Source: Lachnospiraceae bacterium (lineage in GTDB: Bacteria > Bacillota > Clostridia > Lachnospirales > Lachnospiraceae). From it: a DNA stretch of 37,697 bases. Below, piece after piece: positions 2,322 to 14,797 of this stretch (position 1 is the first letter of the stretch; each line of letters starts with the position of its first letter). A program made the position numbers and the translations under genes. The notes under the pieces are model-generated. The model made no database searches and was not told the DNA's origin. It saw nothing but the letters and a program-made list of their open reading frames with translations. Location of the stretch: positions 1 through 37,697 of the forward strand of contig JAFWIM010000226.1 in NCBI GenBank assembly GCA_017514845.1, written 5' to 3'.

Positions 2322-2786
2322 TCATACGATCACTCTCCGATTCCATGCCGTGATGCTTGCGGCCTCTCCTTCCTCTTCGCCTATGACGCCACCATGGACC
2401 TTCGCGCCGCACGACTCGCAATATACCCAGTGAGGATATCCCATCTTCATTATGTGTGCTGTACCACCGCAAAACGGGCATTGCTTTAGACGATCCGTAA
2501 CCTTTTCGTCAGCTGTTCCCTTTTTATCCGTCAGACCGTACAAATAATCTACGGATACGCCGAAGTAGTTTGCAAGGTTTACTATGATCGGTGCTCTTGG
2601 TGTTCTCTCGCCTCTCGTGTATCTATGCATAGAAACTTCAGTGATGCCAACCGCATCCGCGACTTCTCTATAACTGACTTTCTTTTCCTCTATCAGTTTA
2701 CTTAATCTTTCCGACATGTTTATATATGCATCTTTCGGAATGTCCCTCACATGAATAGCTTCGATTCCTCTATTTTTGTGCAACAT
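2322..2786 (-). CDS. XRE-family HTH regulator fused to a Lar-like zinc ribbon
   Basis: The protein has two parts. Near residues 25-87 is a Cro/CI-type helix-turn-helix (VSYREVADAVGITEVSMHRY, then LANYFGVSVDYLYGLT). From about residue 103 to the end is a zinc ribbon with CPFCG and CESCG knuckles ending in ITAWNRR. That is the signature of restriction-alleviation (Lar-type) proteins found in phages, which normally stand alone at about 60 aa. I prefer the ATG at 2786 because AAAGGA lies upstream; ATGs at 2807 and 2717 lack one. A perfect 8-bp inverted repeat just upstream (2807-2834) may be its own operator. A regulator of early genes with an anti-restriction tail is inferred. Confidence 0.8.
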   Translation of the reverse strand: MLHKNRGIEAIHVRDIPKDAYINMSERLSKLIEEKKVSYREVADAVGITEVSMHRYTRGERTPRAPIIVNLANYFGVSVDYLYGLTDKKGTADEKVTDRLKQCPFCGGTAHIMKMGYPHWVYCESCGAKVHGGVIGEEEGEAASITAWNRRVIV

Positions 2787-2806
2787 GTTCAAAAGTATCC
2801 TTTCCA

Positions 2807-2834
2807 TGTTCTGATAACGGGAATTGTCAGAACA
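2807..2834. promoter_or_regulatory. inverted repeat, probable operator of the XRE-Lar gene
   Basis: The arms TGTTCTGA and TCAGAACA are perfect complements, separated by 12 bp. They sit directly upstream of the preferred start of the XRE-Lar gene, where an autoregulator would bind. No clear -35/-10 pair was found here, so the promoter itself is not called. Confidence 0.5.
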
Positions 2835-2852
2835 TTGTTTTTGCTTTAAAAT

Positions 2853-2875
2853 CGGGCAATTTTAACAATCGCCCG
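2853..2875 (-). terminator. weak intrinsic terminator-like hairpin
   Basis: The minus strand can form a 9-bp stem CGGGCGATT/AATTGCCCG (one G-T pair) with a 5-nt loop, followed by ATTTT. It lies between the end of the secreted-protein gene (2918) and the XRE-Lar gene. The U tract is short, so termination may be partial. Confidence 0.45.
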
Positions 2876-3847: not shown

Positions 3848-4834
3848 CTACACCTCTCTGTAATTTATCTTTCTGTACTCTGGCGATTTCCGCCAAGGCT
3901 CGTAGTTATTGAAATCATCCACGCTGTTAAAGACGAATCTGTTATTTACCCACCTCTGCAAGTGTTTCTGGTATCCATCTGGTGATATATGCTCTTTGTC
4001 ATAACACATCACATATGGTGAAAATCCGATTTCCCGAAGGAAGTATATCCGCTCCAGATCCTGCTCTGGTGTCGAATTGAAGTTGAATAGGACATAGACC
4101 GAAACCTTGTGCCGGTCCCATCCCGTCACTTCTGCAAGCATTCGGAATCTTGGCTCGACTATCTTTTTGTCTTGATATCGATCATAAGCGAAATGCACTT
4201 GCTTAATCTTTATCTGCTTGAGCATCTCCGCTTTCTCTTCTGTCATCAGCCGGATATCAAGTCCCTGGTTGAAGTCAACATATGCTTTACTGTCAATCAG
4301 CTGTTGCATGATATCTTTCCAACCCTTGCAAGCAAGGAGATTCGGATCACAGAGCGATATGTATTTTTGACCGTGCCAGAACTCCGATAAATCAGCTACC
4401 TTACGAGAACACAACCCTTCTTTTGTCGGCACATGGCAGTGATCGCATCCTCGCGGACAGCCTCTTGAACAGAATCCATAAGCCGTATTTTCGATATCCT
4501 TTACTCGTCCAAAGTAGATCGAGTAATCTGGATAGATGTGTTCGACCTCTGAAGGAAGTTGCAAGTCCTTCTGCTTGTCATACTTCTCTTTGCCATCTAC
4601 AAGACTGATACAGTATCCACTTCCTCCTTTGATTACTTCGTCTGCATCCACGTAATACTCATAATCAGGTGTAAAGCTAAACACCTTAGCTATATAAACC
4701 TTGTCCATATGTCCGCTGAATAACGGCTCATACCATTCAACCGAATCACCCTGCGCTTTATGCCATGCTGAAATCTTCATCAGCGGTATGTTTGGAAAAT
4801 TGTGCCCGTCTACGTCAATAAGTCCGATCCTCAT
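3848..4834 (-). CDS. radical SAM protein
   Basis: This 328-aa protein carries the iron-sulfur motif of radical SAM enzymes: C126-PRG-C130-DH-C133, preceded by an extra C122. The N-terminal 110 residues (MRIGLIDVDG, then a Rossmann-like segment) resemble the B12-binding-like leader of the MiaB/B12 radical SAM type. Downstream strands such as SLCDPNLLACKGW and FNQGLDIRLM fit a TIM-barrel core. Homologous radical SAM proteins occur in Clostridia phages; substrate is unknown. Nucleic acid or peptide modification are possibilities. The start overlaps the preceding stop (TAATG), indicating coupling. Confidence 0.85.
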   Translation of the reverse strand: MRIGLIDVDGHNFPNIPLMKISAWHKAQGDSVEWYEPLFSGHMDKVYIAKVFSFTPDYEYYVDADEVIKGGSGYCISLVDGKEKYDKQKDLQLPSEVEHIYPDYSIYFGRVKDIENTAYGFCSRGCPRGCDHCHVPTKEGLCSRKVADLSEFWHGQKYISLCDPNLLACKGWKDIMQQLIDSKAYVDFNQGLDIRLMTEEKAEMLKQIKIKQVHFAYDRYQDKKIVEPRFRMLAEVTGWDRHKVSVYVLFNFNSTPEQDLERIYFLREIGFSPYVMCYDKEHISPDGYQKHLQRWVNNRFVFNSVDDFNNYEPWRKSPEYRKINYREV

Positions 4835-5334: not shown

Positions 5335-5607
5335 TCAATCACCTCCCATCCTGATTTTCCATCTGACAAGCTTCTGTGCCTTGATGGCTCTTACCCGCTC
5401 ATCAGAGATAATGCTGCTTAGCTGGTCAAGGATGAGCAGAACATCTGCAGTCTCCTCGGTCAGGGAATCTATGCATTCCATTTCCGACTTCGGAGTTGGA
5501 TTCTCTCCACGGTACTTCCTGGCAAGTTTAAGTGCCGCATGCGTCAGCTCGGCGCTTTCCTCTGCCAGCATCTCAAGCATGGCCGCCTTCCCGATCAAAT
5601 CAATCAT
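5335..5607 (-). CDS. MazG-like nucleotide pyrophosphohydrolase
   Basis: The 90-aa all-helical protein shows the paired acidic helices of the MazG/all-alpha NTP pyrophosphatase superfamily: EESAELTHAALKLARK near residue 16 and EETADVLLILDQL near residue 51. Family members bind Mg2+ through such E-xx-E and E-xx-D positions and hydrolyse NTPs to NMP and PPi. In phages they are thought to reshape nucleotide pools or alarmones during infection. The length is normal for a single-domain member. The final MGGD overlaps the ribosome site of the next gene. Confidence 0.8.
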   Translation of the reverse strand: MIDLIGKAAMLEMLAEESAELTHAALKLARKYRGENPTPKSEMECIDSLTEETADVLLILDQLSSIISDERVRAIKAQKLVRWKIRMGGD

Positions 5608-5628: not shown

Positions 5629-6486
5629 TCATGCTTTTTTCTGCGCCTCTCTCCGGATCCGGATGTCCGGCCTGTGCATCTCCTGACGCTCAATCGCCTT
5701 GTTGAACTCTTCCCGCTGCTGCTCCTCGCTAAGTGTAAGGTAGCCGGCAGTGGTGTTGATGTTCTCATGTCCCATGAGGTCTTTTAAAAGTGCAATATCT
5801 TTGTTGACCTTAAGAAACTCTATCGCGTACAAGTGCCGGAACGCATGAGGATGTGCCACATCCCTCGGGACGCCGTACTTGACCGCCCACCTTGCTAGAT
5901 CTGCGGCAGCTCCCCGCGTCGTCATCTGATTCCCGAATCGATTTGGGAACAAAAGCTCCCCGGGAACATTCTTGAAATAATCTGCAGACTCGTAAATCAG
6001 GATGTCCGGGATCCGGATCCGGCGGATCTTTCCCTTTGTCCACATTTCGCAGACACCCGTTTCGAGTCCGGATTTATCCAGGCGAACGAACTCGGAGATT
6101 CTTGCGCCTGTCTTTGCCAGAAAAACCGTCATCCAGTATCCGCGGACATTCCCATCACCCAGCAGGCCGGCTATCATCTGCTCGTACTGGTCAACGGTGA
6201 TCACGTTTTCGACTGTCGGCTTTGCCTGCACCCTGACCGTCTTGACCTTGCAGTCGTGCCGGCCAATAAATTCACAGAAGCGATTCAGCGCCGTTGTGCG
6301 GTTTGCCGCCGTCTTAGGTGCGTAACCCGCTACCTGACCCAGCTTGTAAGATACCGCGTGCTCTTTCGTGAGTATCTCATACTCTTCCAGGAAGCTCTCG
6401 ACTGCATAACAGTAGCTCCGTATCGTTGACGGGCTTTTCTCATCGTCGACAAGATACTCACGGAACTTTTCAACCTCCGGTCTCAT
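5629..6486 (-). CDS. second tyrosine recombinase (XerC/D-like)
   Basis: This is a complete 285-aa recombinase. The N-terminal SAM-like DNA-binding part covers residues about 1-85. Catalytic residues visible are R129 (TGARISE), K151/K153, H214 and R217 (HPHAFRHL), H240 (LMGHE) and nucleophile Y249 (TAGYL). It is shorter than the integrase at 13688 and lies inside the early replication cluster, immediately after the replication protein (overlapping it by 4 bp). A role in resolving multimers, or in a site-specific switch, is more likely than lysogenic integration. No inverted target pair was identified. Confidence 0.88.
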   Translation of the reverse strand: MRPEVEKFREYLVDDEKSPSTIRSYCYAVESFLEEYEILTKEHAVSYKLGQVAGYAPKTAANRTTALNRFCEFIGRHDCKVKTVRVQAKPTVENVITVDQYEQMIAGLLGDGNVRGYWMTVFLAKTGARISEFVRLDKSGLETGVCEMWTKGKIRRIRIPDILIYESADYFKNVPGELLFPNRFGNQMTTRGAAADLARWAVKYGVPRDVAHPHAFRHLYAIEFLKVNKDIALLKDLMGHENINTTAGYLTLSEEQQREEFNKAIERQEMHRPDIRIRREAQKKA

Positions 6487-7391
6487 CCTGCTCCCTCATG
6501 TGCCGGCGGGGCGCCGAGTAGTGCGCTCTCGATCTGCTTCATTTCATCGGCTGACCGCTGCCGCTGCTCAAAATTGTAAAAACTGCCTTTCGGTTTCTTA
6601 TCGGACGTACCGCTGCCGCTCCGCGGCTTAGCTAACGGAAAGAAGCTCTTCCACTTGTGAATGGTGGCTTCGTCTATAATCGCCGCCTGCTCCTTCGGAT
6701 CCGTGGACAATTCCGTCAGCTTCTTGATCAGCCGGTTGATCTGGTAGTCTGTCAGCTTCTCCTCTCTTGCTTCGAGGTATGCGGTAAAAGCCTCATTGAC
6801 TGACGAATCACTGAAATATGCACCGCCGCGCGATATAGATATATTTTCCTTTACTTTACTTTTATTTACTTTTCTTTTCTTTAGGTCTTTTTTCTCGGAA
6901 TTACTCCCGTTTTTCTCGGAAAAACCCGCGTTTTTCTCGGAATTACTTAAAAAAGGTTTCACTTTAATAAAGCTCTCGGTCTCCTCATTTTCGAGAAGCC
7001 AGAACTCTGCTCTGACTTCGACGGCATTTTTTGAAGCCCTAACCTTAACAGCTTCCTGATACCGCCTCTGTATTCCGGTGGAGGTTATGACAGTGACCGG
7101 AACAACAAGTGTGCTGGTGATGGATACCAGTAGTGACCGGCTGAACAAGTATTCCATAATCTGCCTGACCTTTTCGCGGGACATTCCGAGATCCTGCGAT
7201 GCAATGAGTTCGAGATCTTCGTTGAGCTCGATATAGTAGCCCTTATCCTTGTAGATCCTCGTCAGGAGATACATGTAACATGTAAAACCATCCGCGCCGA
7301 ACTTGGCCATGAGGATCCTGATCCCGAAGTCATTGAAAATATCCGTATCAACGGGGAAGTAATCGAGACCTTGTTTACGTGGTCTTCCCAT
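6483..7391 (-). CDS. replication protein with DUF4373 (Lin1244/Lin1753-type) N-terminal domain
   Basis: The 302-aa protein begins MGRPRKQGLDYFPVDTDIF, the hallmark of the DUF4373 domain (residues about 1-95), a winged-helix-like module often found before DnaD-like domains. A low-complexity linker (about 135-175) contains three SEKN/SEKK heptads and is rich in Lys. A C-terminal helical part (about 185-245) ends with HKWKSFFPL. Related phage proteins initiate or load replication. The start follows a strong AAGGAGG site. The linker DNA holds 21-bp direct repeats beside an AT-rich tract, so the gene may contain the origin. No helicase or polymerase gene is present, so host enzymes are presumably recruited. 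Confidence 0.82.
   Translation of the reverse strand: MGRPRKQGLDYFPVDTDIFNDFGIRILMAKFGADGFTCYMYLLTRIYKDKGYYIELNEDLELIASQDLGMSREKVRQIMEYLFSRSLLVSITSTLVVPVTVITSTGIQRRYQEAVKVRASKNAVEVRAEFWLLENEETESFIKVKPFLSNSEKNAGFSEKNGSNSEKKDLKKRKVNKSKVKENISISRGGAYFSDSSVNEAFTAYLEAREEKLTDYQINRLIKKLTELSTDPKEQAAIIDEATIHKWKSFFPLAKPRSGSGTSDKKPKGSFYNFEQRQRSADEMKQIESALLGAPPAHEGAG
6835..6945. other. candidate replication origin: iterons plus AT-rich tract
   Basis: Three copies of TTTTTCTCGGAA start at 6889, 6910 and 6931, exactly 21 bp apart, so each lies on the same helix face. Next to them (6840-6888) is a nearly pure A/T and pyrimidine tract. Both lie inside the replication gene, where many phage and plasmid initiators keep their own origin. 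The repeats also encode a heptapeptide repeat, so a protein-level explanation remains possible. Confidence 0.5.
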
Positions 7392-7422: not shown

Positions 7423-7887
7423 TCAGATATGCATGCCGGCCGGATCGCTCCAGTCTTCAGACGCAGCGCCGACCGTTACGGTCAGTCCCTCATCAAAAGA
7501 AAAGAGCTTTCTAACGGTGATCTCAATCACCTGTGCATCATCGTAATAAGCGGAGCCGTTCAGGGCATCCAGCACGGCCTTCACGATGTTATCGGCGTCC
7601 GGCTTCCTCGTTGGGAACTTCTCACCGTTCTGGATCTTTATCATGTCCTTTTTCGTTGTCCTGGCTGCCGGCTTATAATATGCCGTGATCCGGATCCTGA
7701 CCGGCACGCCCTTAGCAAATACCAGTTCCTTCGGATTTCCGGCCTCGAACAGGAACGCGTTCAATATCCTGTATTCATAGTATTCCGTCCGCGCAGGTGT
7801 AAAGCTGACCGAATCGCCTTTCTTCGTGCGGACTGTTCGCGCCCTGGCCTTGCCCTGAGGCGGCCCCGGGACGCTGAATGTTATCAT
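7423..7887 (-). CDS. rusA: RusA-family Holliday junction resolvase
   Basis: The 154-aa product matches RusA-type endonucleases. It opens ITFSVPGPPQGKARAR, and the active-site region has KPDADN (95-100), K103, D107 in VLDALNG and the terminal pair YYDDAQV (114-120). The conserved Asp residues coordinate Mg2+. The enzyme cuts four-way junctions and phage replication intermediates before packaging. The ribosome site AAAGGAGG lies well placed upstream. It sits upstream of the replication protein in the same transcript. Confidence 0.9.
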   Translation of the reverse strand: MITFSVPGPPQGKARARTVRTKKGDSVSFTPARTEYYEYRILNAFLFEAGNPKELVFAKGVPVRIRITAYYKPAARTTKKDMIKIQNGEKFPTRKPDADNIVKAVLDALNGSAYYDDAQVIEITVRKLFSFDEGLTVTVGAASEDWSDPAGMHI

Positions 7888-7992
7888 TGTCTCTTATATA
7901 CCTCCTTTCGCATGCTTGCCTCGATGGCAGCGGATCGCTGCCTGTCGCAGGATCATCACAGCGCCGGATGCTCCGGAGCTCTGACCGTCCTA

Positions 7993-8019
7993 CGAAAAAA
8001 GGGGTAGCATACTACCCCT
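7993..8019 (-). terminator. intrinsic terminator
   Basis: On the minus strand AGGGGTAG/CTACCCCT forms a GC-rich 7-8 bp stem with a 4-nt loop, followed by TTTTTT. It is just downstream of the 70-aa gene ending at 8034 and before RusA. It probably attenuates the early transcript, so antitermination or a second promoter may be needed for the replication genes. Confidence 0.8.
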
Positions 8020-8033
8020 GAAAATGACGTGCA

Positions 8034-8246
8034 TCACCCGCTGACACATCCGATCACTTCCCGGAGGTGCTTGATCTCGTGTTCATTCAGGTCATGCCTC
8101 ACCTCACCGATGAAGTAATACGGCTGCTTGCTCCTCGGATACTTAATGGCGTATGTGATGATGTTCTTTGTCTTGCTGTCTTCTACTCGTATATAAGCCT
8201 TGAGCTTCCCATGCGGCATCTCTGCCCTGATTGATTTTGTCTGCAT
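8034..8246 (-). CDS. hypothetical phage protein (70 aa)
   Basis: This small basic protein has a beta-rich pattern (KLKAYIRVEDS, NIITYAIKY, PYYFIGEVRH) and a C-terminal helix (LNEHEIKHLREVIG). The start has AAGGAAGG upstream. It is followed by a strong terminator and preceded by an 800-bp noncoding stretch containing tRNA-like structures. No family is recognised. Confidence 0.7.
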   Translation of the reverse strand: MQTKSIRAEMPHGKLKAYIRVEDSKTKNIITYAIKYPRSKQPYYFIGEVRHDLNEHEIKHLREVIGCVSG

Positions 8247-8331
8247 TCTTGTTCCTTCCTTTCCTGGCTCTGCATTTTACCGGCTGGCCTCGGTCGCCCA
8301 TCGGGCGGCTGCATTACGGGTCTTTACAAAT

Positions 8332-8652
8332 ATCGGGGCGGTATCATGTTACGGATTGCCAAAATGAGGCATTTATATGGTTTTGTCAGTAGTGTGCATT
8401 TGCTATATTCTGTCACTGAACATTTGCTGCGTATTCGTACAATGATCAGATTTTTCGTGAGATCCGCCCCGATTTATTCAGTTGTAATTTGTGCTGCTAT
8501 CCGGCAGCGGTAGTTAGCTCATCTCATAGGCTTCCCTCTCTTTCTGCTTTATTTTGGTATGTGTCTATAACGACGGGGCTAAAAGTAAAGTGCATATAAA
8601 CTAAATCGCGGAATCAGAGATATTGAAAATTCATTGTTTGAAACAGCCCCGT
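8332..8652 (-). ncRNA. gene-free stretch with two long-range stems
   Basis: No plausible gene occupies 8247-8739. The sequence can close two large loops: ATCGGGGCGG (8332-8341) with CCGCCCCGAT (8464-8473), a perfect 10-bp pair, and ACGGGGCT (8573-8580) with AGCCCCGT (8645-8652), a perfect 8-bp pair. Both enclose AT-rich DNA. Another perfect hairpin, GTACCGCTGC/GCAGCGGTAC with a 3-nt loop, lies at 8666-8688. I infer structured RNA in the early transcript, but these closed loops do not show a T arm and are not tRNA-like. Confidence 0.4.
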
Positions 8653-8739
8653 AATTACCGGCCCGTACCGCTGCCAGGCAGCGGTACAGCACTAAAATAT
8701 AAAGGAGCACGCATACGATGGCTTAACGATGCGCGAAGA

Positions 8740-8874
8740 CGGAACGGCGGGACTCGGACCCGCTGAGGCTTGTGAGTATCAGGTAGGTTTCACGATTATT
8801 CAGCAGTTGGCAGCTTGCTTTATATGTTTCTAAAGGACTAAAAATGCGCCTCTGCTCCCTGTGAGCTCGTTCCG
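8740..8874 (-). ncRNA. tRNA-like element with about 78-nt insertion in the anticodon arm
   Basis: Read on the minus strand, CGGAACG (8874-8868) pairs perfectly with CGTTCCG (8746-8740). Next come a spacer A, a 4-bp D-like arm GCTC/GAGC with a 5-nt loop ACAGG, a single A, and a 5-bp stem GAGGC/GCCTC. After one further A there is a 5-bp T arm GCGGG/CCCGC with a 7-nt loop TCCGAGT that joins the closing stem directly. These spacings are those of a tRNA. The difference is that the anticodon stem encloses 78 nt (8770-8847) instead of 7. It could be a tRNA with an insertion or a dedicated tRNA-mimic RNA. No CCA is encoded. Confidence 0.6.
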
Positions 8875-8947
8875 GGAATCCCTCCGTCTCCGGAGGGACC
8901 AGCAATATGAGGAATAAAAATGCTCATCCCGGGCAATCGCCCGGAAG

Positions 8948-9037
8948 GCAGGACGGCGGGCATGACCCCGCTGCCGAAGATAAGGACAGTTTGGGGAAAG
9001 GTATTATCCTTCGGCACTCCCTTTCGGAGCATCCAGC
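8948..9037 (-). ncRNA. tRNA-like element with extended anticodon arm
   Basis: On the minus strand GCTGGATG pairs with CGTCCTGC (one mismatch, one G-T) as a closing stem. Inside is a D-like arm CTCC/GGAG with a 5-nt loop. A long arm follows, TGCCGAAGGATAA (9016-9004) with TTATCTTCGGCA (8983-8972), 12 bp with one bulge and a 20-nt loop. A T-like arm GCGGG/CCCGC with a 6-nt loop abuts the closing stem. The layout equals the neighbouring element at 8740-8874. It lies between two early genes and is not a normal tRNA because no 7-nt anticodon loop can be drawn. Confidence 0.5.
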
Positions 9038-9049
9038 ATGACCGGGCAT

Positions 9050-9418
9050 TCACCTGGATATCATCTTTGCAGCGATCTCCCTGACGATCGCGCCGGCGAT
9101 CAGATCCGGATCCACGCTGAGCTGCTGGGTGATGAACACATCAGAAGTGACTCCCAGATCCCGCTCAGCTTCCCGGACGTCAAACTCGGGGACATACTTC
9201 TTGGAATCCTTGTTCCGAAGGCGGTCACGATAGCTCATGTAATCGGTGAGTACCGCGTACCTTATCTGCAGGAGCTTTCCTGTCCCCCTGAGTGCATACG
9301 GGCCGTAGCGCTTCCCGACTCCGGAATAACTCCGGATCTCGTTTATGATCGTCTTCATTGCGGTCGTAGAAAGCCCGAGCTCTTCCATGGCCTCTGTCCG
9401 TGTTATGTACTGCTTCAT
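9050..9418 (-). CDS. probable DNA-binding early regulator (HTH)
   Basis: The 122-aa protein starts MKQYITRTEAMEELGLSTTA, a winged-helix/excisionase-like beginning, followed by a basic helix (RYAVLTDYMSYRDRLRNKDSKK). The C-terminal half is acidic-helical (EFDVREAERDLGVTSDVF, LIAGAIVREIAAKM). AGGAGG is 7 nt upstream of the ATG. It lies directly after the DUF5688-type gene in the early operon. A DNA-binding role is inferred from the helix pattern; the exact family is not identified. Confidence 0.65.
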   Translation of the reverse strand: MKQYITRTEAMEELGLSTTAMKTIINEIRSYSGVGKRYGPYALRGTGKLLQIRYAVLTDYMSYRDRLRNKDSKKYVPEFDVREAERDLGVTSDVFITQQLSVDPDLIAGAIVREIAAKMISR

Positions 9419-9430
9419 CAGCTACACCTC

Positions 9431-10072
9431 CTAAACTGTCAGGTAATAGACTTTGTCTATAAGGCGGTTGTCCTGGCCTGTCTCGCGGTCGACACCAAGC
9501 ATGATTGAAACACGGTCCTCCAGACTTCCCATTCCTATGTCAGGTTCTAATATCCATTCGTGAGGCGATGACGGGTAAGCAATCCATCTTGAAGTTCTTG
9601 CATCTTTTGAGACATCCTTCAGGAGTTCCTTGCAGTACAGGATCGCGCCAGCTCCCGCGAAATGAATCTCGTTCGTCACGATATAAAGAGAGAACCCGTC
9701 ATTCTCTAATTCTTCCGGCGTAAAGACCGGAGCTCCGTACAGATCCATTGCAAGCTCGTTCATGGCGGCATGAAGCTCATCAATCCGGACAGCTCCGGAA
9801 GTGTTTTTGACTGCCGTTTCCCAGGCGTCGGCAGTATTGATTCCAATCGCCTCAAGATGAACAGGAAACACAAGCGCATTCATGTAAGAACCCCCGTCCG
9901 GGGTCTCTCTGACAGATATGATATACTCTTCCAGTCCCGGGAACATCTCGCACTCCCTTGTGACAGCTCCGTCTTCCTCGGGCTTCCTAAGATTCACCCG
10001 GAGCATTCCGAGAAATTCTTCGCGGAGCTGCTCAATTGTCTGAAATTCTTTTGTTATAAATTTGAGACCCAT
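9431..10072 (-). CDS. DUF5688-type protein
   Basis: The 213-aa protein shows the features of DUF5688 proteins common in Lachnospiraceae: FPVHLEAIGINTADAWETAV in the middle, LYIVTNEIHFAGAGAILY, then WIAYPSSPHEWILEPD near residue 165. These proteins are found in phages and mobile elements and have no established activity. It supports a Lachnospiraceae host. The ribosome site is GAAAGGAAGG. No signal peptide or membrane segment is present. Confidence 0.8.
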   Translation of the reverse strand: MGLKFITKEFQTIEQLREEFLGMLRVNLRKPEEDGAVTRECEMFPGLEEYIISVRETPDGGSYMNALVFPVHLEAIGINTADAWETAVKNTSGAVRIDELHAAMNELAMDLYGAPVFTPEELENDGFSLYIVTNEIHFAGAGAILYCKELLKDVSKDARTSRWIAYPSSPHEWILEPDIGMGSLEDRVSIMLGVDRETGQDNRLIDKVYYLTV

Positions 10073-10117
10073 ATAATTCCCTTCCTTTCACGTGTGCCGG
10101 CATTGCCGGCTTTATGC

Positions 10118-10168
10118 CCCCTCGGAGCGTTTGAAGCTCCTTAACACAGCCGTCCGCCGTAAGAGGGA
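10118..10168 (-). ncRNA. minimal tRNA-like remnant: closing stem plus T arm
   Basis: On the minus strand GGAGC/GCTCC encloses the 7-nt loop TTCAAAC, a canonical T-loop sequence. Flanking bases TCCCTC and GAGGGG can close the element. The 22 nt between the 5' closing strand and the T arm form no clear D or anticodon arm. It could be a degenerate relative of the other tRNA-like elements, or a chance hairpin. Confidence 0.35.
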
Positions 10169-10212
10169 CTTATCCTTGGAGGAATTCTGCAAATGAAATA
10201 CAGAAAACCGAT

Positions 10213-10281
10213 GAAGGCCGCGGGATTCGAACCCGCTCAGCGTGGAAAGGCCAATAGAAACACGCCTGCACCAGCACCCTC
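10213..10281 (-). ncRNA. tRNA-like element with 16-nt anticodon loop
   Basis: On the minus strand a perfect T arm GCGGG-TTCGAAT-CCCGC is followed by GGCCTTC, which pairs with GAGGGTG (two G-T pairs, one mismatch). A very small D-like arm (TGC/GCA or CTG/CAG) follows the 5' strand. The anticodon stem GCGTG/CACGC is perfect but encloses 16 nt. At 69 nt it is tRNA-sized, and the T arm alone would attract tRNA finders. No anticodon can be assigned. It lies between genes ending at 10304 and starting at 10072. Confidence 0.5.
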
Positions 10282-10303
10282 GTTTGCAGCGGGCAAATCC
10301 GCT

Positions 10304-10540
10304 TCACCTCACCATGTCATATAATTCTTTCTCGATCACTGTGAGTGCTTCATTGAATTCATCCCATTCACTGTCTGTTATGATTCCGAGCACTCCGGCC
10401 GCTGCCAATTCTCCAGAGAGGAAAGCCATGCTGCTCCTGACTGCCGAGAAACACAAAAGACCTTTCTCAGCGTCGGCGCGTTTCATCCTGCAGGTGCTTT
10501 CGATCTCTCTACGTAAGAACTCCAGGAATATGTCCTTCAC
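10304..10540 (-). CDS. hypothetical phage protein (78 aa)
   Basis: This is an all-helical small protein with a GTG start preceded by GGAAGGAG. Sequence features are FLRREIESTCRMKRADAEKGLL, a less polar centre (SSMAFLSGELAAAGVLGIIT) and a heptad-like C-terminus (ALTVIEKELYDMV). Similar small helical proteins occur in Lachnospiraceae elements, but no function is known. It is followed immediately by tRNA-like sequence. Confidence 0.7.
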   Translation of the reverse strand: MKDIFLEFLRREIESTCRMKRADAEKGLLCFSAVRSSMAFLSGELAAAGVLGIITDSEWDEFNEALTVIEKELYDMVR

Positions 10541-10594
10541 TATTTCACTCCTTCCTGCTAAAGGATGTCGCGGAACGCGACCCCCTTAAAACAC

Positions 10595-11149
10595 CTAAAT
10601 GCCATTACTCGAGTAACTGTTAATGTTGCAGATCCTCGGGCGAAGTGTCTTATCTGAGAGCCCTTTCATCATCATTTGCATTCTGTAGCTATCTTTAAGT
10701 GATAATTCTGATGGATGCTCATAAGCTTTTTGTGGGTATATATCATGCTTCGCGATAAAAGCCTGGTAAAAGAAATTAACCTCTTCCTTCCAAAGTTCAC
10801 GGTAGAAATCAAACTCAATAGCTATCTCTATTCCTTGAGCTTTTGTGCAACTGATAAGAAATGTGCTTCGTGAGCCCTTCCCGTAGAGAAGAGTACGAAC
10901 ACGCCTCCTATTCTCCGTGATATCCGGAAAATGCTTGTAAAAGATTTGCAGAAGCAATCTATGTTCAAATTCTCCGTGGTAGCTGAATGACTGAATCTCT
11001 TCAATATCTTCTGAAATATCCGCTTCCTCGATACCATACTTTTTCATCAGCTTTTCAAGGAGCTTTGCGGCATCTTCCTTTTCACCGCCGACGCCGCGAT
11101 CGGCCAATGCCTTCACCTTCTTAATCAGTTCAATCTTTTTTGATTCCAT
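10595..11149 (-). CDS. DUF2786 domain protein
   Basis: Residues 1-45 (KVKALADRGVGGEKEDAAKLLEKLMKKYGI) match the short helical DUF2786 domain, found in phage and bacterial proteins of unknown role. The remaining about 130 residues are basic and contain TFLISCTKAQGIEIAIEF and an aromatic helical segment (FYRELWKEEVNFFYQAF). No catalytic motif is evident. It is the second conventional gene after the early promoter region and is AT-richer than its neighbours. Confidence 0.8.
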   Translation of the reverse strand: MESKKIELIKKVKALADRGVGGEKEDAAKLLEKLMKKYGIEEADISEDIEEIQSFSYHGEFEHRLLLQIFYKHFPDITENRRRVRTLLYGKGSRSTFLISCTKAQGIEIAIEFDFYRELWKEEVNFFYQAFIAKHDIYPQKAYEHPSELSLKDSYRMQMMMKGLSDKTLRPRICNINSYSSNGI

Positions 11150-11230
11150 CCCTTATCCTGTCTTTAAAATATTTATCCCTCTACTCCCTAACCGTTGGGA
11201 GAGCCTAAACCTGTCGCCTTTAACAGAAAT

Positions 11231-11527
11231 TTAAGAAACTTTTCTCAAATGTATCCGGCGCTCATAATCCGACAGGACAATCTTGTCGACCGGAAGGTCG
11301 TCGAAATACATCTTTTCCTTCGCGTTGTCGAGATCCCTGCAGATAACGTGTTTCCCGTTCTGGCTCACGAGAGGGATGCGGATAACATGCTTGCGGCCGT
11401 TCTCGTCCTCAATGATGTTGTCAAGCGGCATGTCATAATATGCCTGGTTGACCGTATAGATCTTATCCTTGGGGATCCAGAACACTGCTTTGATTCCATT
11501 CGGCGTCCGGAACTTTGCCATTTCCAT
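11231..11527 (-). CDS. hypothetical early phage protein (98 aa)
   Basis: The ATG start has GAAAGGAAAT upstream. The protein is beta-rich and charged (GIKAVFWIPKDKIYTV, KHVIRIPLVSQNGKHVICRD) and ends in a basic ERRIHLRKVS tail. It lies just downstream of two tRNA-like elements and is an early gene. No family is recognised. Confidence 0.7.
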   Translation of the reverse strand: MEMAKFRTPNGIKAVFWIPKDKIYTVNQAYYDMPLDNIIEDENGRKHVIRIPLVSQNGKHVICRDLDNAKEKMYFDDLPVDKIVLSDYERRIHLRKVS

Positions 11528-11641
11528 TTTTTATTTCCTTTCTGCTTGGGTATTGTGAACTCCTTTGATTTGAAAATTATGACCGGTCTCTTTCCAGCGC
11601 TCTCCTCCCTGATCGGGGATCACTGCACACGCTGGGTGAAT

Positions 11642-11715
11642 CGGGATGGCAGGATTCGAACCTGCAGCCTCCGGTTATGAGGGGTACCGGCGCTCTACCA
11701 TTGAGCTACATCCCG
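11642..11715 (-). tRNA. tRNA-like gene, CAT triplet, abnormal 10-nt anticodon loop
   Basis: On the minus strand the acceptor stem CGGGATG/CATCCCG is perfect (7 bp). The D arm GCTC-AATGGTA-GAGC is canonical with the GG pair. The T arm GCAGG-TTCGAAT-CCTGC is perfect. The anticodon arm (11671-11690) has a 5-bp stem CCGGT/ACCGG but a 10-nt loop instead of 7. Within it T-CAT-A is the only triplet placed like an anticodon (Met/Ile type). The gene encodes no CCA. It may be a functional phage tRNA with an odd loop, a frameshift-type tRNA, or a mimic. Total length is 74 nt. Confidence 0.65.
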
Positions 11716-11935
11716 TGTTCGCGCTTGTTGTCGCACAAGGCGTTAAGCGGTGGTTTCTATCGACTCATGAAGATCTCCCACGCCGGTCTCTCCCGACTGT
11801 CACGGTCATCCAGATGAGCATACCGTTTCTGCTTGTACCGCTGGATTCAGCCCCTTATTTTCGTGTGTCCATTTTAGGTGTCCTCGCGTTTGCAACCGCG
11901 CACACTGGATTAAGTAGTACTTTCCTACACTACGT
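11716..11935. other. noncoding spacer between two tRNA-like genes
   Basis: I found no ORF with a ribosome site here. The minus strand can form GTAGT/ACTAC near 11914-11933 and a CGCG/CGCG hairpin with an 8-nt loop near 11885-11900. It may hold processing signals or another degraded tRNA-like unit, but no complete T arm with a closing stem was found. Confidence 0.4.
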
Positions 11936-12009
11936 CGGGAAGACGGGATTTGAACCCGTAAAGTCCATTGGCTTTTACCAACCGCTCTGCCAGATTGAGC
12001 TACATCCCG
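11936..12009 (-). tRNA. tRNA-like gene with 6-nt anticodon loop
   Basis: On the minus strand the acceptor CGGGATG/CTTCCCG pairs at six of seven positions. The D arm GCTC-AATCTGGCA-GAGC and T arm ACGGG-TTCAAAT-CCCGT are canonical. The best anticodon stem is GTTGG/CCAAT (one G-T pair) with a 6-nt loop TAAAAG, and the variable region is 7 nt. No register gives a normal 7-nt loop with U33, so the isotype is left undetermined. The first 16 bases equal those of the element at 11642, suggesting the two are duplicates that diverged in the anticodon arm. Confidence 0.6.
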
Positions 12010-12049
12010 AAAAATAAAAATCCCTACTACTTTTTATTTCAGAATTTTT

Positions 12050-12081
12050 TTCGAGTTTTAAACTCGAAAAAACTCGAATTA
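12050..12081. promoter_or_regulatory. TCGAGTTT palindrome cluster
   Basis: Three copies of a CGAGTTT/AAACTCG half-site lie in alternating orientation, two forming a perfect palindrome flanked by T and A runs. It is downstream of the first early mini-genes and upstream of the tRNA-like genes. It could be a protein site or an RNA hairpin (processing or weak terminator). There is no U tract after it on the minus strand. Confidence 0.35.
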
Positions 12082-12089
12082 ACGAAAAA

Positions 12090-12197
12090 TTAATCTTTTG
12101 TTCGCTTCGCCGCCCGCTCTTTCCTGCGGAGCTTAGCCAGATGCTTTATCTCCTGCTTTCTGGCGTGCTGGCGGCGGATTCTCTCCGCCGCCCTCAT
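12090..12197 (-). CDS. very small basic protein (35 aa), second early gene
   Basis: The start ATG overlaps the stop of the 46-aa ORF by ATGA, a strong sign of coupled translation. The product is extremely basic and helical (RRQHARKQEIKHLAKLRRKE). It might bind nucleic acid. No family is recognised; the call rests on the coupled start and its location right after the early promoter. Confidence 0.5.
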   Translation of the reverse strand: MRAAERIRRQHARKQEIKHLAKLRRKERAAKRTKD

Positions 12198-12334
12198 GCG
12201 CTCGCCTTCGGAGGAGACGGCAAATTCTTGAGTGCTATCATGATTTCGCCAACGTTCAAAAGCTTCGGCCGTTCCTCTTTCCCAAGCTCTCGGAAAATCT
12301 GCAGAAGCTTGTCTTCCTGTTCGCGCTCGCTCAT
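12194..12334 (-). CDS. small early protein (46 aa), first gene after the early promoter
   Basis: The ATG at 12334 is preceded by AAAGGGGGTG at good spacing and lies about 45 bp from the early -10 box. The product is mostly helical (SEREQEDKLLQIFRELGKEE, then KLLNVGEIMIALKNL). It occupies the cro position but no helix-turn-helix is evident, so I do not call it Cro. The plus-strand reading over this region lacks a ribosome site. Confidence 0.6.
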   Translation of the reverse strand: MSEREQEDKLLQIFRELGKEERPKLLNVGEIMIALKNLPSPPKASA

Positions 12335-12367
12335 TATTGACACCCCCTTTCGTTTATTTCCAATTTG

Positions 12368-12433
12368 TTGCCTCTGGTTATATCATAATTGCCAATGGTA
12401 ATTTTGTCAATAAGAATTTGTAACCAAAGGCAA
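12368..12433. promoter_or_regulatory. three CI-type operators in the lysis/lysogeny switch
   Basis: TTGCCTCTGGTTA (12368-12380), TTGCCAATGGTAA (12389-12401) and TAACCAAAGGCAA (12421-12433, opposite orientation) share a 13-bp pseudo-palindrome, TTgCCnnTGGtnA. The first two are 21 bp apart, two helix turns. The first covers the start region of the early promoter, the second its spacer. The third lies just upstream of the repressor promoter -35. This matches a repressor that blocks early genes and tunes its own expression. Confidence 0.8.
12382..12410 (-). promoter_or_regulatory. early lytic promoter
   Basis: On the minus strand TTGACA (12410-12405) and TATGAT (12387-12382) are separated by 17 bp, close to the vegetative sigma consensus. 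The second operator lies within the spacer. The promoter fires leftward into the 46-aa gene and the whole early region. Confidence 0.85.
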
Positions 12434-12441
12434 CAATTTCA

Positions 12442-12470
12442 TTGAAAGCGGTTTTTTATTGTGGTAAAGT
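12442..12470 (+). promoter_or_regulatory. repressor promoter
   Basis: TTGAAA (12442-12447) and TAAAGT (12465-12470) are 17 bp apart. The start point would fall near 12477, giving a short leader with AAAGGAGGTG before the TTG start. This makes any start codon upstream of about 12477 impossible. Confidence 0.75.
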
Positions 12471-12492
12471 TCTATTAAAGGAGGTGATACGC

Positions 12493-12972
12493 TTGAGCGA
12501 AGAAAACAGAGTAAGAGAATTGCGCAAGGCATTGAACTGCACACTCGATAAATTTTCAGAACCGCTTGGAGTGAGTAAGACAGCGATATCAAGAATCGAG
12601 AACGGTGAACGTACACTTACTGATCAGATGGCAAAAGCAATCTGCAGTGTGTATAGGGTTAATGAAACATGGCTTAAAAACGGAATCGGTGAAATGTTCG
12701 AGACTCGCCCGATCGGCGACGACCTGAAGGCGCGGATTGATTATTTTCTTCCGGATGAGAGCGAGACATTCCGTCTCAGGTTGGCCAGGCTGATCCTCAG
12801 CATGGATAAAGAGGACATGGCAAAGCTGGAAGCTTATGCAAGAAAGTACCTCTTCCCGAAAGAATCGGACACTGATGCTATTGATCAGAAAGTTGAGAGC
12901 TACCGCGCGGAGCTGGAAGCAGAGGTTGCATCTGAAAAAGCAGAAGCTTCACGGACTACAAAAGACGCTTGA
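12493..12972 (+). CDS. CI-type phage repressor (XRE HTH, no peptidase domain)
   Basis: This is a 159-aa protein with a TTG start 8 nt after AAAGGAGG; the ATG at 12442 lies in the promoter. Residues 1-65 form a Cro/CI helix-turn-helix (LDKFSEPLGVSKTAISRIENG). The rest is helical and acidic, ending in a coiled-coil-like tail rich in Glu/Ala. There is no LexA/S24 cleavage site or Ser-Lys dyad, so RecA-stimulated self-cleavage is not expected. Induction would need another route, such as an antirepressor. It is divergent from the early promoter and flanked by three matching operators. Confidence 0.88.
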   Translation: MSEENRVRELRKALNCTLDKFSEPLGVSKTAISRIENGERTLTDQMAKAICSVYRVNETWLKNGIGEMFETRPIGDDLKARIDYFLPDESETFRLRLARLILSMDKEDMAKLEAYARKYLFPKESDTDAIDQKVESYRAELEAEVASEKAEASRTTKDA

Positions 12973-13655: not shown

Positions 13656-13687
13656 CTCTTATAATGCAAGCATGGAGGTTACTCGAA

Positions 13688-14797
13688 ATGTGGATACAGA
13701 AACGAGGGAATAAATACCGCTTTATGGAGCGTTATATCGATCCAATAACGGGAAAACAGCAGTATGTGACGTGTACGCTCGAAAAGGACACTCCGCAGTA
13801 CCAGCGCAGGGCGTCAGCCATACTGCAGGACAAGATCACGGAAAAGCTCCAGGCATCCGCGGCACCCGACAAAATTACACTGCAGACTCTCATGGATAAG
13901 TATGCAAAGTATCAGTCTGTGACCGTCAAGGAAACGACAGCTGTCCGGAACTCTTACCAGGCCGCGGCCGTTGGCAGGATCCTCGGCGGACAGTCCATAG
14001 TAAGCAGCCTGACCGCCGCCTATGTGACTGACAAGCTGATCAGCGCCGGGGAAACGCCGGCATGCACAAACGGCCGGATAAAATATCTTAAAGCTTGTAT
14101 CAGGTGGGGGTATAAGATGGACTTGGTTGAGTCTCCTGCTCTGGCCGACAAAATAAGTTATCTCCCGGACCCGGGAAGAAAGGAGAAACTCATGACGAAA
14201 TTTATGGAACCGGAGGAACTGCAGAAGCTGCTTGACTCGATGGATAATAACCGCTGGAAGCTCCTCACCCGTTTCCTTTGCCTCTCCGGGCTTAGGATCG
14301 GTGAGTTGATCGCACTGACTGACAAAGATGTCGGTGATAAGTATATCCATGTCAGCAAGACTTATGATGTCAAACTCGATAAGCTTCACGGCACTCCGAA
14401 GACTGATACATCGAACAGGGATGTTTATATCCAGAAAGAATTGGCTGACTGCATCCGGGAGATGAGGAAGGAACGCAGAATCATGCTCCTTGCTGCCGGA
14501 GCTTCATCTAATCTTTTTTACCCGGATGCTAAAGGCGGATATCTCCACTACTTTGCTTTTAATAAATACCTGGCGGAGAACTCCAAACGCGTACTAGGCC
14601 GGAAGTTGACACCGCATGCGTGCCGGCACACGATGACCAGCATCTTCGCGGCGCAGGGTGCGAGCATCGACACAATCAGCCGTAGGCTTGGCCATAGCGA
14701 TTCCGGGATCACAAAAGAGATCTATCTGCATGTGACAGGTGAACAGCGCAAAAAAGATGAGGCACAGATTGACAATATCCGCATGCTGAGCAGCTGA
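13688..14797 (+). CDS. int: phage integrase (tyrosine recombinase)
   Basis: This 369-aa enzyme is presumed to catalyse integration. The start ATG at 13688 is chosen because GGAGG is 9 nt upstream; the ATG at 13664 has none and abuts the predicted transcription start. An N-terminal arm-binding domain (MWIQKRGNKYRF, YIDPITGK) is followed by a core-binding domain (about 62-160). The catalytic domain shows R203 (LSGLRIGEL), K238, H310 and R313 (PHACRHT), H336 (RLGHSD) and Y346. Immediately downstream is the presumptive attP with paired direct repeats. Confidence 0.95.
   Translation: MWIQKRGNKYRFMERYIDPITGKQQYVTCTLEKDTPQYQRRASAILQDKITEKLQASAAPDKITLQTLMDKYAKYQSVTVKETTAVRNSYQAAAVGRILGGQSIVSSLTAAYVTDKLISAGETPACTNGRIKYLKACIRWGYKMDLVESPALADKISYLPDPGRKEKLMTKFMEPEELQKLLDSMDNNRWKLLTRFLCLSGLRIGELIALTDKDVGDKYIHVSKTYDVKLDKLHGTPKTDTSNRDVYIQKELADCIREMRKERRIMLLAAGASSNLFYPDAKGGYLHYFAFNKYLAENSKRVLGRKLTPHACRHTMTSIFAAQGASIDTISRRLGHSDSGITKEIYLHVTGEQRKKDEAQIDNIRMLSS

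Follow-up and report, generated by a model that had tools for sequence, protein, structure and literature searches.

The minus strand of contig JAFWIM010000226.1 (assembly GCA_017514845.1), from a Lachnospiraceae bacterium, carries five elements, here named A to E, that resemble tRNAs to differing degrees (Table 1). The window analyzed is this whole contig (37,697 nt), which is temperate tailed phage-like, with a terminase, a portal protein, a tape measure protein, and a weak endolysin match. On the sequence evidence, the balance tips toward a group of non-decoding tRNA-like modules (A, B, and E, with C and D as looser members) that punctuate the early-operon transcript for processing by RNase P and RNase Z. 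Arrays in which such elements alternate with conserved non-coding spacers occur in 16 contigs of phages or prophages.

Five spacer types share one start register, by which the spacer anchor lies at +2 after the discriminator base of the preceding element. All of the scored copies keep this register (21/21: alpha, 7; beta, 5; beta2, 3; gamma, 3; delta, 3); a further beta-type copy, in contig L033 where the start is truncated, was left unscored. The register is kept even though the preceding elements differ in sequence, size, and acceptor ends; before alpha in locus L055, the preceding element is a genuine tRNA-Met. Because these borders between adjoining RNA units fall exactly at the 3′ end of a tRNA fold in every scored copy, the simplest explanation is a precursor RNA punctuated by these folds. 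RNase Z acting on CCA-less tRNAs cuts just after the discriminator base. CCA is encoded in 0/27 host tRNAs and 0/44 array elements, so the same RNase Z route could serve both.

A preliminary description of this DNA proposed a set of tRNA-like elements without a usable anticodon loop, and this holds for A, B, and E, whereas C is mainly a T arm and D is a junction with a non-tRNA T loop. By score, A and B belong to the Rfam tRNA family (RF00005; gathering score 29 bits), and no tRNA match is given for C, D, or E (the cmscan of positions 8000–12500 omitted two lower overlapping clan matches). ARAGORN, which had been suggested as a check, recovers A and B and assigns no amino acid to either; ARAGORN and cmscan identify no decoding tRNA in the window. 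The anticodon arm of A has a 6-nt loop or, alternatively, a 6-bp stem with a tetraloop. Four IMG/VR contigs (L001–L004) are relatives that share the window region, and the A-type elements of three of them (L002, L003, and L004) have a GAAA tetraloop, capped as CGAAAG; L001 is without an A-type element. The anticodon arm of B combines a 5-bp stem with a 10-nt loop, ACCCCTCATA, that is constant in the B-type copies of L001–L004; locus L014 also has this loop, but was retrieved by searching with it. In E, 7/7 acceptor pairs form, and the T arm has a 5-bp stem and a 7-nt loop. The loop sizes first given for A (6 nt), B (10 nt), and E (78 nt) are reproduced here; because none of these loops, nor the tetraloop form of A, is a readable 7-nt anticodon loop, the three elements are not filed as decoding tRNAs.

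Our own scanner scores the acceptor, D, and T arms and ignores the anticodon arm. With a cut-off score of 20, its matches in the window are A, B, and E, all on the minus strand, and the plus strand gives none; C and D fall below the threshold of 20.5. Across 100 shuffles of the window minus strand, the mean number of matches is 0.03 at scores of at least 20.5, 0.02 at 21 or above, and 0 at 21.5. Relative to shuffled sequences, D, B, A, and E fold better (z of −2.52, −2.41, −2.24, and −1.95, respectively), and C folds no better (z of −0.47). Over positions 8740–8874 (135 bases), E is identical to the window in 4/4 relatives and is the most conserved stretch of 7800–10300; most 50-base stretches of 7800–9400 are 81–98% identical, and the DUF5688 frame is 62% identical with gaps counted as differences (L002 is without this frame).

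Table 1. Positions and properties of features in the window.
Feature	Position	Strand	Remarks
Element A, tRNA-like	11935..12009	-	Rfam tRNA 45.5 bits; found by ARAGORN
Spacer alpha, non-coding RNA directly after A	11716..11934	-	Core 11800-11908, two nested covarying helices
Element B, tRNA-like	11641..11715	-	Rfam tRNA 65 bits; found by ARAGORN
Conserved leader segment after B (TTCACCCAGCGTGTGCAGTGATCCCC...)	11582..11640	-	Aligned in L001-L004; precedes first early gene
Element C, T-arm hairpin	10213..10281	-	Weak acceptor, very short D arm; lies ahead of epsilon
Epsilon, small conserved RNA, not tRNA-like	10116..10171	-	Homologues in the four relatives and in L041 (about 2270-2330, +)
Element D, tRNA-shaped four-way junction	8948..9037	-	Non-canonical T loop, long central arm
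Element E, tRNA-like	8739..8874	-	Scanner score 21.5; acceptor, D, and T arms; 78-nt loop replaces anticodon loop
Twister-P1-like ribozyme candidate	8262..8320	-	cmscan 31.6 bits, below gathering score of 67.2; E 0.0005; end of same non-coding stretch
Promoter-like site TTGACA-17-TATGAT	12382..12410	-	11/12 consensus matches; upstream of array, divergent from cI-like gene
cI-like repressor	12442-12972		
Integrase	13664-14797	+	

The T arm of C is perfect and, by eye, still pairs in 4/4 relatives. D has a T loop of 6 nt without TTC, an acceptor with a T-T mismatch, and a central loop of 29 nt (16 nt counting inner pairs) rather than the 20 nt originally reported. A weaker tRNA-like element had been placed at 10118–10168; the RNA here is instead the separate small conserved RNA epsilon, with a closing stem of CCCTC/GAGGG that is altered yet pairs as CCCCA/TGGGG in L041, which is otherwise a different phage. 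The L041 epsilon homologue comes after a tRNA-like element, just as epsilon in the window comes after C, which suggests that C belongs to the same class in a worn form.

The 16 array contigs comprise the window, 13 IMG/VR records (G042–G046 and G442–G449), G018:C367, and G034:C1. Further arrays were found by using patterns drawn from the B loop, the hairpin–tRNA junction, and the spacers, and by searching 42 genomes of the genus, six of which match: three contain arrays (the window's own genome, G018, and G034) and three contain host tRNA clusters. Pattern matches at L010, L012, and L013 were dropped for want of a tRNA-like element, and those at L026, L027, and L028 as host tRNA clusters. Genome searches recover few arrays: among 397 genomes of the family, the two matches are the window's own genome and a host tRNA cluster (L020); E has only its own match in the 42 genus genomes; and the hairpin-plus-tRNA pattern has no match in the genome contig collection. 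A 98-aa protein encoded between elements has no match in the viral contig or genome contig collections.

At scores of at least 20.5, the scanner gives 59 matches in 17 loci of these 16 contigs, 44 of which are mutually <85% identical. The host baseline consists of 27 tRNAs found by the same scanner in 13 host stretches; cmscan gives 38 tRNA matches in the host genome, A and B among them, and the host's own tRNAs are ordinary. A canonical anticodon loop, defined as a 5-bp stem with a 7-nt loop, is present in 9/44 of the non-redundant array elements vs. 23/27 of the host tRNAs (Fisher p = 9e-8); on an alternative reading, 24 of those 27 have a 7-nt loop. Within the group nearest the window (the window, L001–L004, L015, L018, L041, and L056), only one of 15 elements passes, and that one (L041) has a 7-nt loop without U33. 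The 35 elements that fail, a set that includes mis-registered calls and genuine tRNAs, have A58 in all 35, TTC at positions 54–56 in 33, the D-loop GG in 29, and all seven acceptor pairs in 25, and carry 23 different acceptor strands.

The L055 array is a mixture of odd elements and tRNAs for Pro, Met, Trp, Tyr, Asn, and Gln as identified by ARAGORN. By eye, L055 also contains two minimal tRNA folds with almost no anticodon arm (6738–6817 and 7740–7800), the first of which (score 20.2, under the count threshold) is perhaps also missing the D arm. Elements in L037 (8752–8856) and L039 (5201–5295) have a loop insert with a ribosome-site-like GGAGG and an ATG; the two inserts seem by eye to be nine bases different, and could represent a short reading frame that starts inside the tRNA fold.

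Element G, which occurs in three phages, has a constant enlarged loop and differing acceptor stems. Pairing is maintained through two-sided changes at four of the seven acceptor pairs and at one T-stem pair (three sequences; 1/500 shuffles as high). E is invariant. The central arm of D has one pair with two-sided change, one that becomes G-U, and one that fails to form in a single sequence, which is not above shuffles (71/500 as high).

The spacers are ~155–230 nt in length and conserved, and fall into four or more types: alpha, beta (the 5′ half of which is of two kinds), gamma, and delta. The units are ordered differently in different phages, and number from one (L056) to several. Many spacers carry, near the 3′ end, a hairpin of the form GACAG-stem-GARAGA-stem; in the 23 listed, the stem letters change together. 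The long core of alpha is almost invariant, and alpha may form an H-type pseudoknot, the second helix of which does not vary. In seven alpha sequences, 98% of cells are paired and 9/22 pairs are changed on both sides, with 0/500 shuffles as high on either measure, and slid controls drop to 25–40%. No Rfam 15 match is listed for the spacers at E ≤ 10 (window) or at E ≤ 0.1, 1, or 0.5 (other loci), with L030, L032, L033, L036, L038, L040, L041, and L056 outside the scan. From these comparisons, at least one spacer type, alpha, is a well-supported structured RNA class unmatched in Rfam 15.

A model of alpha, applied to 392 genomes of the order under stricter filters, detects only the window's own genome, and the alpha region has zero matches in the phage collection. 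The beta/gamma region, searched together with its elements, matches 99 records of that collection; the 20 of these that are listed all match over the tRNA-like part, 19 being annotated as tRNA-Pro and one (Javan636) being unannotated. The L034 array matches a single record of the phage collection over 28 bases, where ARAGORN finds no tRNA.

We propose that the modules keep the features read by RNase P, RNase Z, and the CCA-adding enzyme (acceptor stem, D/T elbow, and discriminator base), and have lost the decoding anticodon loop, i.e., what the ribosome reads. Going downstream from the 11/12 promoter match, the array comes first on the strand, ahead of the first early gene, and elements C, D, and E are placed between early genes. 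Because this promoter match faces away from the repressor, the array downstream of it would be made early; eight promoter-like sites occur in 8000–12500 vs. a shuffle mean of 4.9, and the promoter assignment is by consensus match only. Transcription would proceed from the 12410–12382 promoter, host RNase P and RNase Z would cut both ends of each module, and the cuts would release the leader non-coding RNAs (alpha, and in relatives beta, gamma, and delta) as well as gene-bearing pieces further down. The released spacers would be the functional products. The twister-P1-like candidate, if a ribozyme, would give the array transcript a self-cutting site; at E ≤ 0.1, L002 and L003 give a match to it and L001 and L004 do not, although the DNA is 94–97% identical in all four. 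Of the earlier suggestion that the elements act on processing enzymes as decoys or mimics, the link to processing is retained, in that the elements fit best as boundary-marking substrates, and the notion of a mimic that blocks the enzymes is not.

Several points weigh against processing by punctuation, or limit what the figures above can carry. Pairing is rewarded by both the scanner and the Rfam model, which makes pairing figures on their matches partly circular; because the scanner rewards pairing, those figures for the arrays describe the set and are not proof of selection, and the register, element G, and alpha results depend less on this. The 21 copies in register are related rather than 21 independent events, and spacer anchors were sought only within 16 bases of the element end. 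The 44 elements include dubious or mis-registered calls (L003 5080–5217, L038 6362–6552, and L001 3751–3846), and at least five of those failing the canonical test are genuine tRNAs according to ARAGORN (L037 9075, L038 7520, L033 572, and L055 8199 and 8893). The 9/44 therefore understates the canonical share, which is nearer one third; the L041 case is the only canonical one within the group nearest the window. The mid-region ranges from 18 to 138 nt, and both extremes come from dubious or mis-registered calls or from genuine tRNAs. C and D are weak tRNA mimics. The constancy of E leaves no covariation to be read, and conservation of the 78-nt loop to the same degree as the arms is not a prediction of simple punctuation; this loop may itself be a payload. 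Among the three G sequences, a D-stem pair fails to form in one, and a pair of the anticodon stem as drawn fails to form in two. For the spacers, the further pair types of alpha are not above shuffles (247/500), delta is weaker (3/12 pairs; 47/500 shuffles as high), and beta and gamma were assessed by folding only.

It is unlikely that the elements are instead decoys, by which abundant tRNA-like RNAs would occupy, or be cut by, defence enzymes acting on the tRNA acceptor or elbow, thereby sparing the real tRNAs. The acceptor, D, and T arms are indeed the parts that are kept, and evasion of tRNA-targeting defence by phage tRNAs has been reported (PMC11555353, PMC12409363). However, a decoy function leaves unexplained the conserved spacers and their fixed register to the tRNA 3′ end. 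The original form of this proposal, in which anticodon nucleases are the enzymes deceived, is disfavored because the anticodon region varies most between element types while the acceptor, D, and T arms are kept. A loop that such nucleases could read is not preserved: loop size and sequence differ between types (within type B they are constant), and with no shared anticodon loop, anticodon nucleases are unlikely targets.

We give still less credence to the whole leader being one cis-acting or large multi-domain RNA (for antitermination, attenuation, or cage-like assembly), with the tRNA-like folds as structural domains. The position of the array between the early promoter match and the first early gene would suit such a leader, as would the long core and possible pseudoknot of alpha. 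Against this, the leader is built of separate blocks that occur in differing orders and number as few as one (L056), and the loci scanned give no listed Rfam match for the spacers.

Decay of tRNA genes, also raised in the preliminary description, would make the elements remnants of a phage tRNA array, and is improbable. The mixture of genuine and odd tRNAs in L055 indicates that the odd elements probably descend from tRNAs, and C and D are poor tRNA mimics. Nevertheless, the loss of constraint on all arms that decay entails is not seen, given the invariance of E across the relatives, where no stretch of 7800–10300 is more conserved, and the compensatory acceptor changes in G alongside the same odd loop. 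It is highly improbable that the elements are working tRNAs whose enlarged loops serve in reading unusual codons, shifting frame, or suppressing stops, as the loops span tetraloops to 78 nt and more and the two minimal L055 folds are by eye almost without an anticodon arm, despite the presence in the B loop of CTCATA, which we take to resemble a tRNA-Met loop with extra bases.

Beyond punctuation of the transcript by non-decoding modules, the arrays could, though this is less likely than not, be modular phage RNA cassettes. Anticodon-less tRNA folds would serve as dedicated cut-and-exchange tags between members of a varying set of novel structured RNA classes (alpha to epsilon). Homologous exchange between tags would reshuffle these RNAs, which would act in counter-defence or in taking over the host early. 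In phages, numerous tRNA-shaped genes lie beside large structured RNAs of unknown purpose. Non-decoding tRNA folds at exact RNA borders would separate the processing role of the tRNA fold from its translation role, and suggest that the decoding capacity of a phage genome can be overestimated from its number of tRNAs. No title in the literature search, outside which most subscription papers fell, was recognized as being about such arrays.

In mitochondria, tRNA folds punctuate polycistronic transcripts, marking cuts that free neighboring RNAs. The arrays are alike in that tRNA folds are the proposed cut marks; they differ in that they are found in phages, the markers are non-decoding, the freed pieces would be mostly non-coding, and cleavage is a prediction. 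Compared with phage tRNA arrays, they share the tandem arrangement of tRNA-shaped genes, and L055 retains decoding tRNAs; the differences are the long conserved spacers and, in the window, the lack of any decoding tRNA found.

A further likeness is to GOLLD (RF02032) and ROOL beside tRNA islands, in which a structured phage RNA is followed directly by a tRNA; none of the array spacers in the loci scanned has a listed match to either family. The non-coding region of Streptococcus phage Javan636 matched 237 phage records, and seven loci were examined (Javan636 and six of the 25 listed). GOLLD is present in five of the seven, and in three of these five (L059, L062, and L063) a tRNA starts 8–10 nt after the GOLLD end; L064 and L065 have no tRNA after GOLLD. 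The layout is the same as that of the array, with a known RNA in the place of alpha, but the following tRNA is normal in L062 and L063 and has a slightly long anticodon arm in L059, and GOLLD differs from the ~155–230 nt spacers of the arrays. In Javan636 itself (L059 1105–1576), a tRNA-like element lies 10 bases beyond GOLLD; the record leaves this element unannotated, and ARAGORN reads it as a stop (TTA) tRNA. Further T arms are seen by eye downstream.

YrlA, a bacterial Y RNA, has a tRNA-shaped module without decoding, and in this it resembles the elements. No match to YrlA (RF02553) occurs in 8000–12500 at E ≤ 10, and the TROVE/Ro60 protein was found in 0/15 genomes or records, several of which are fragments. 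Inside the L037 array, there is a sub-threshold YrlA match (9204–9296; 32.9 bits, gathering score 69). Transfer-messenger RNA (RF00023) was rejected as an identity, given that only 17 bases, in the T arm of C, match (15.8 bits vs. 47). Stable RNAs 1 and 2 of T4 are stable non-tRNA products of a phage tRNA cluster, and are likened to the arrays in this respect by description, not sequence.

Regarding gene context, nine array groups were compared by their partial flanks, and no cluster of reading frames spans all nine. The widest clusters (seven groups) overlie the arrays themselves; the next (five groups) is helix-turn-helix regulator-like and includes window positions 2325–2861, which overlap a helix-turn-helix regulator. 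A related terminase occurs in 1218 phage records, and among the eight matches listed are phages of Geobacillus, Exiguobacterium, Ruminococcus gnavus, and Streptococcus (50–63% identity). The window phage encodes two integrase-family proteins, one at 5629–6486 (minus strand) in addition to that in Table 1. At 3848–4834 (minus strand) it encodes a radical SAM protein of family phrog_9298 (E 1e-107), without a Pfam match at 0.01, and a weak MazG-like open reading frame lies nearby at 5335–5607.

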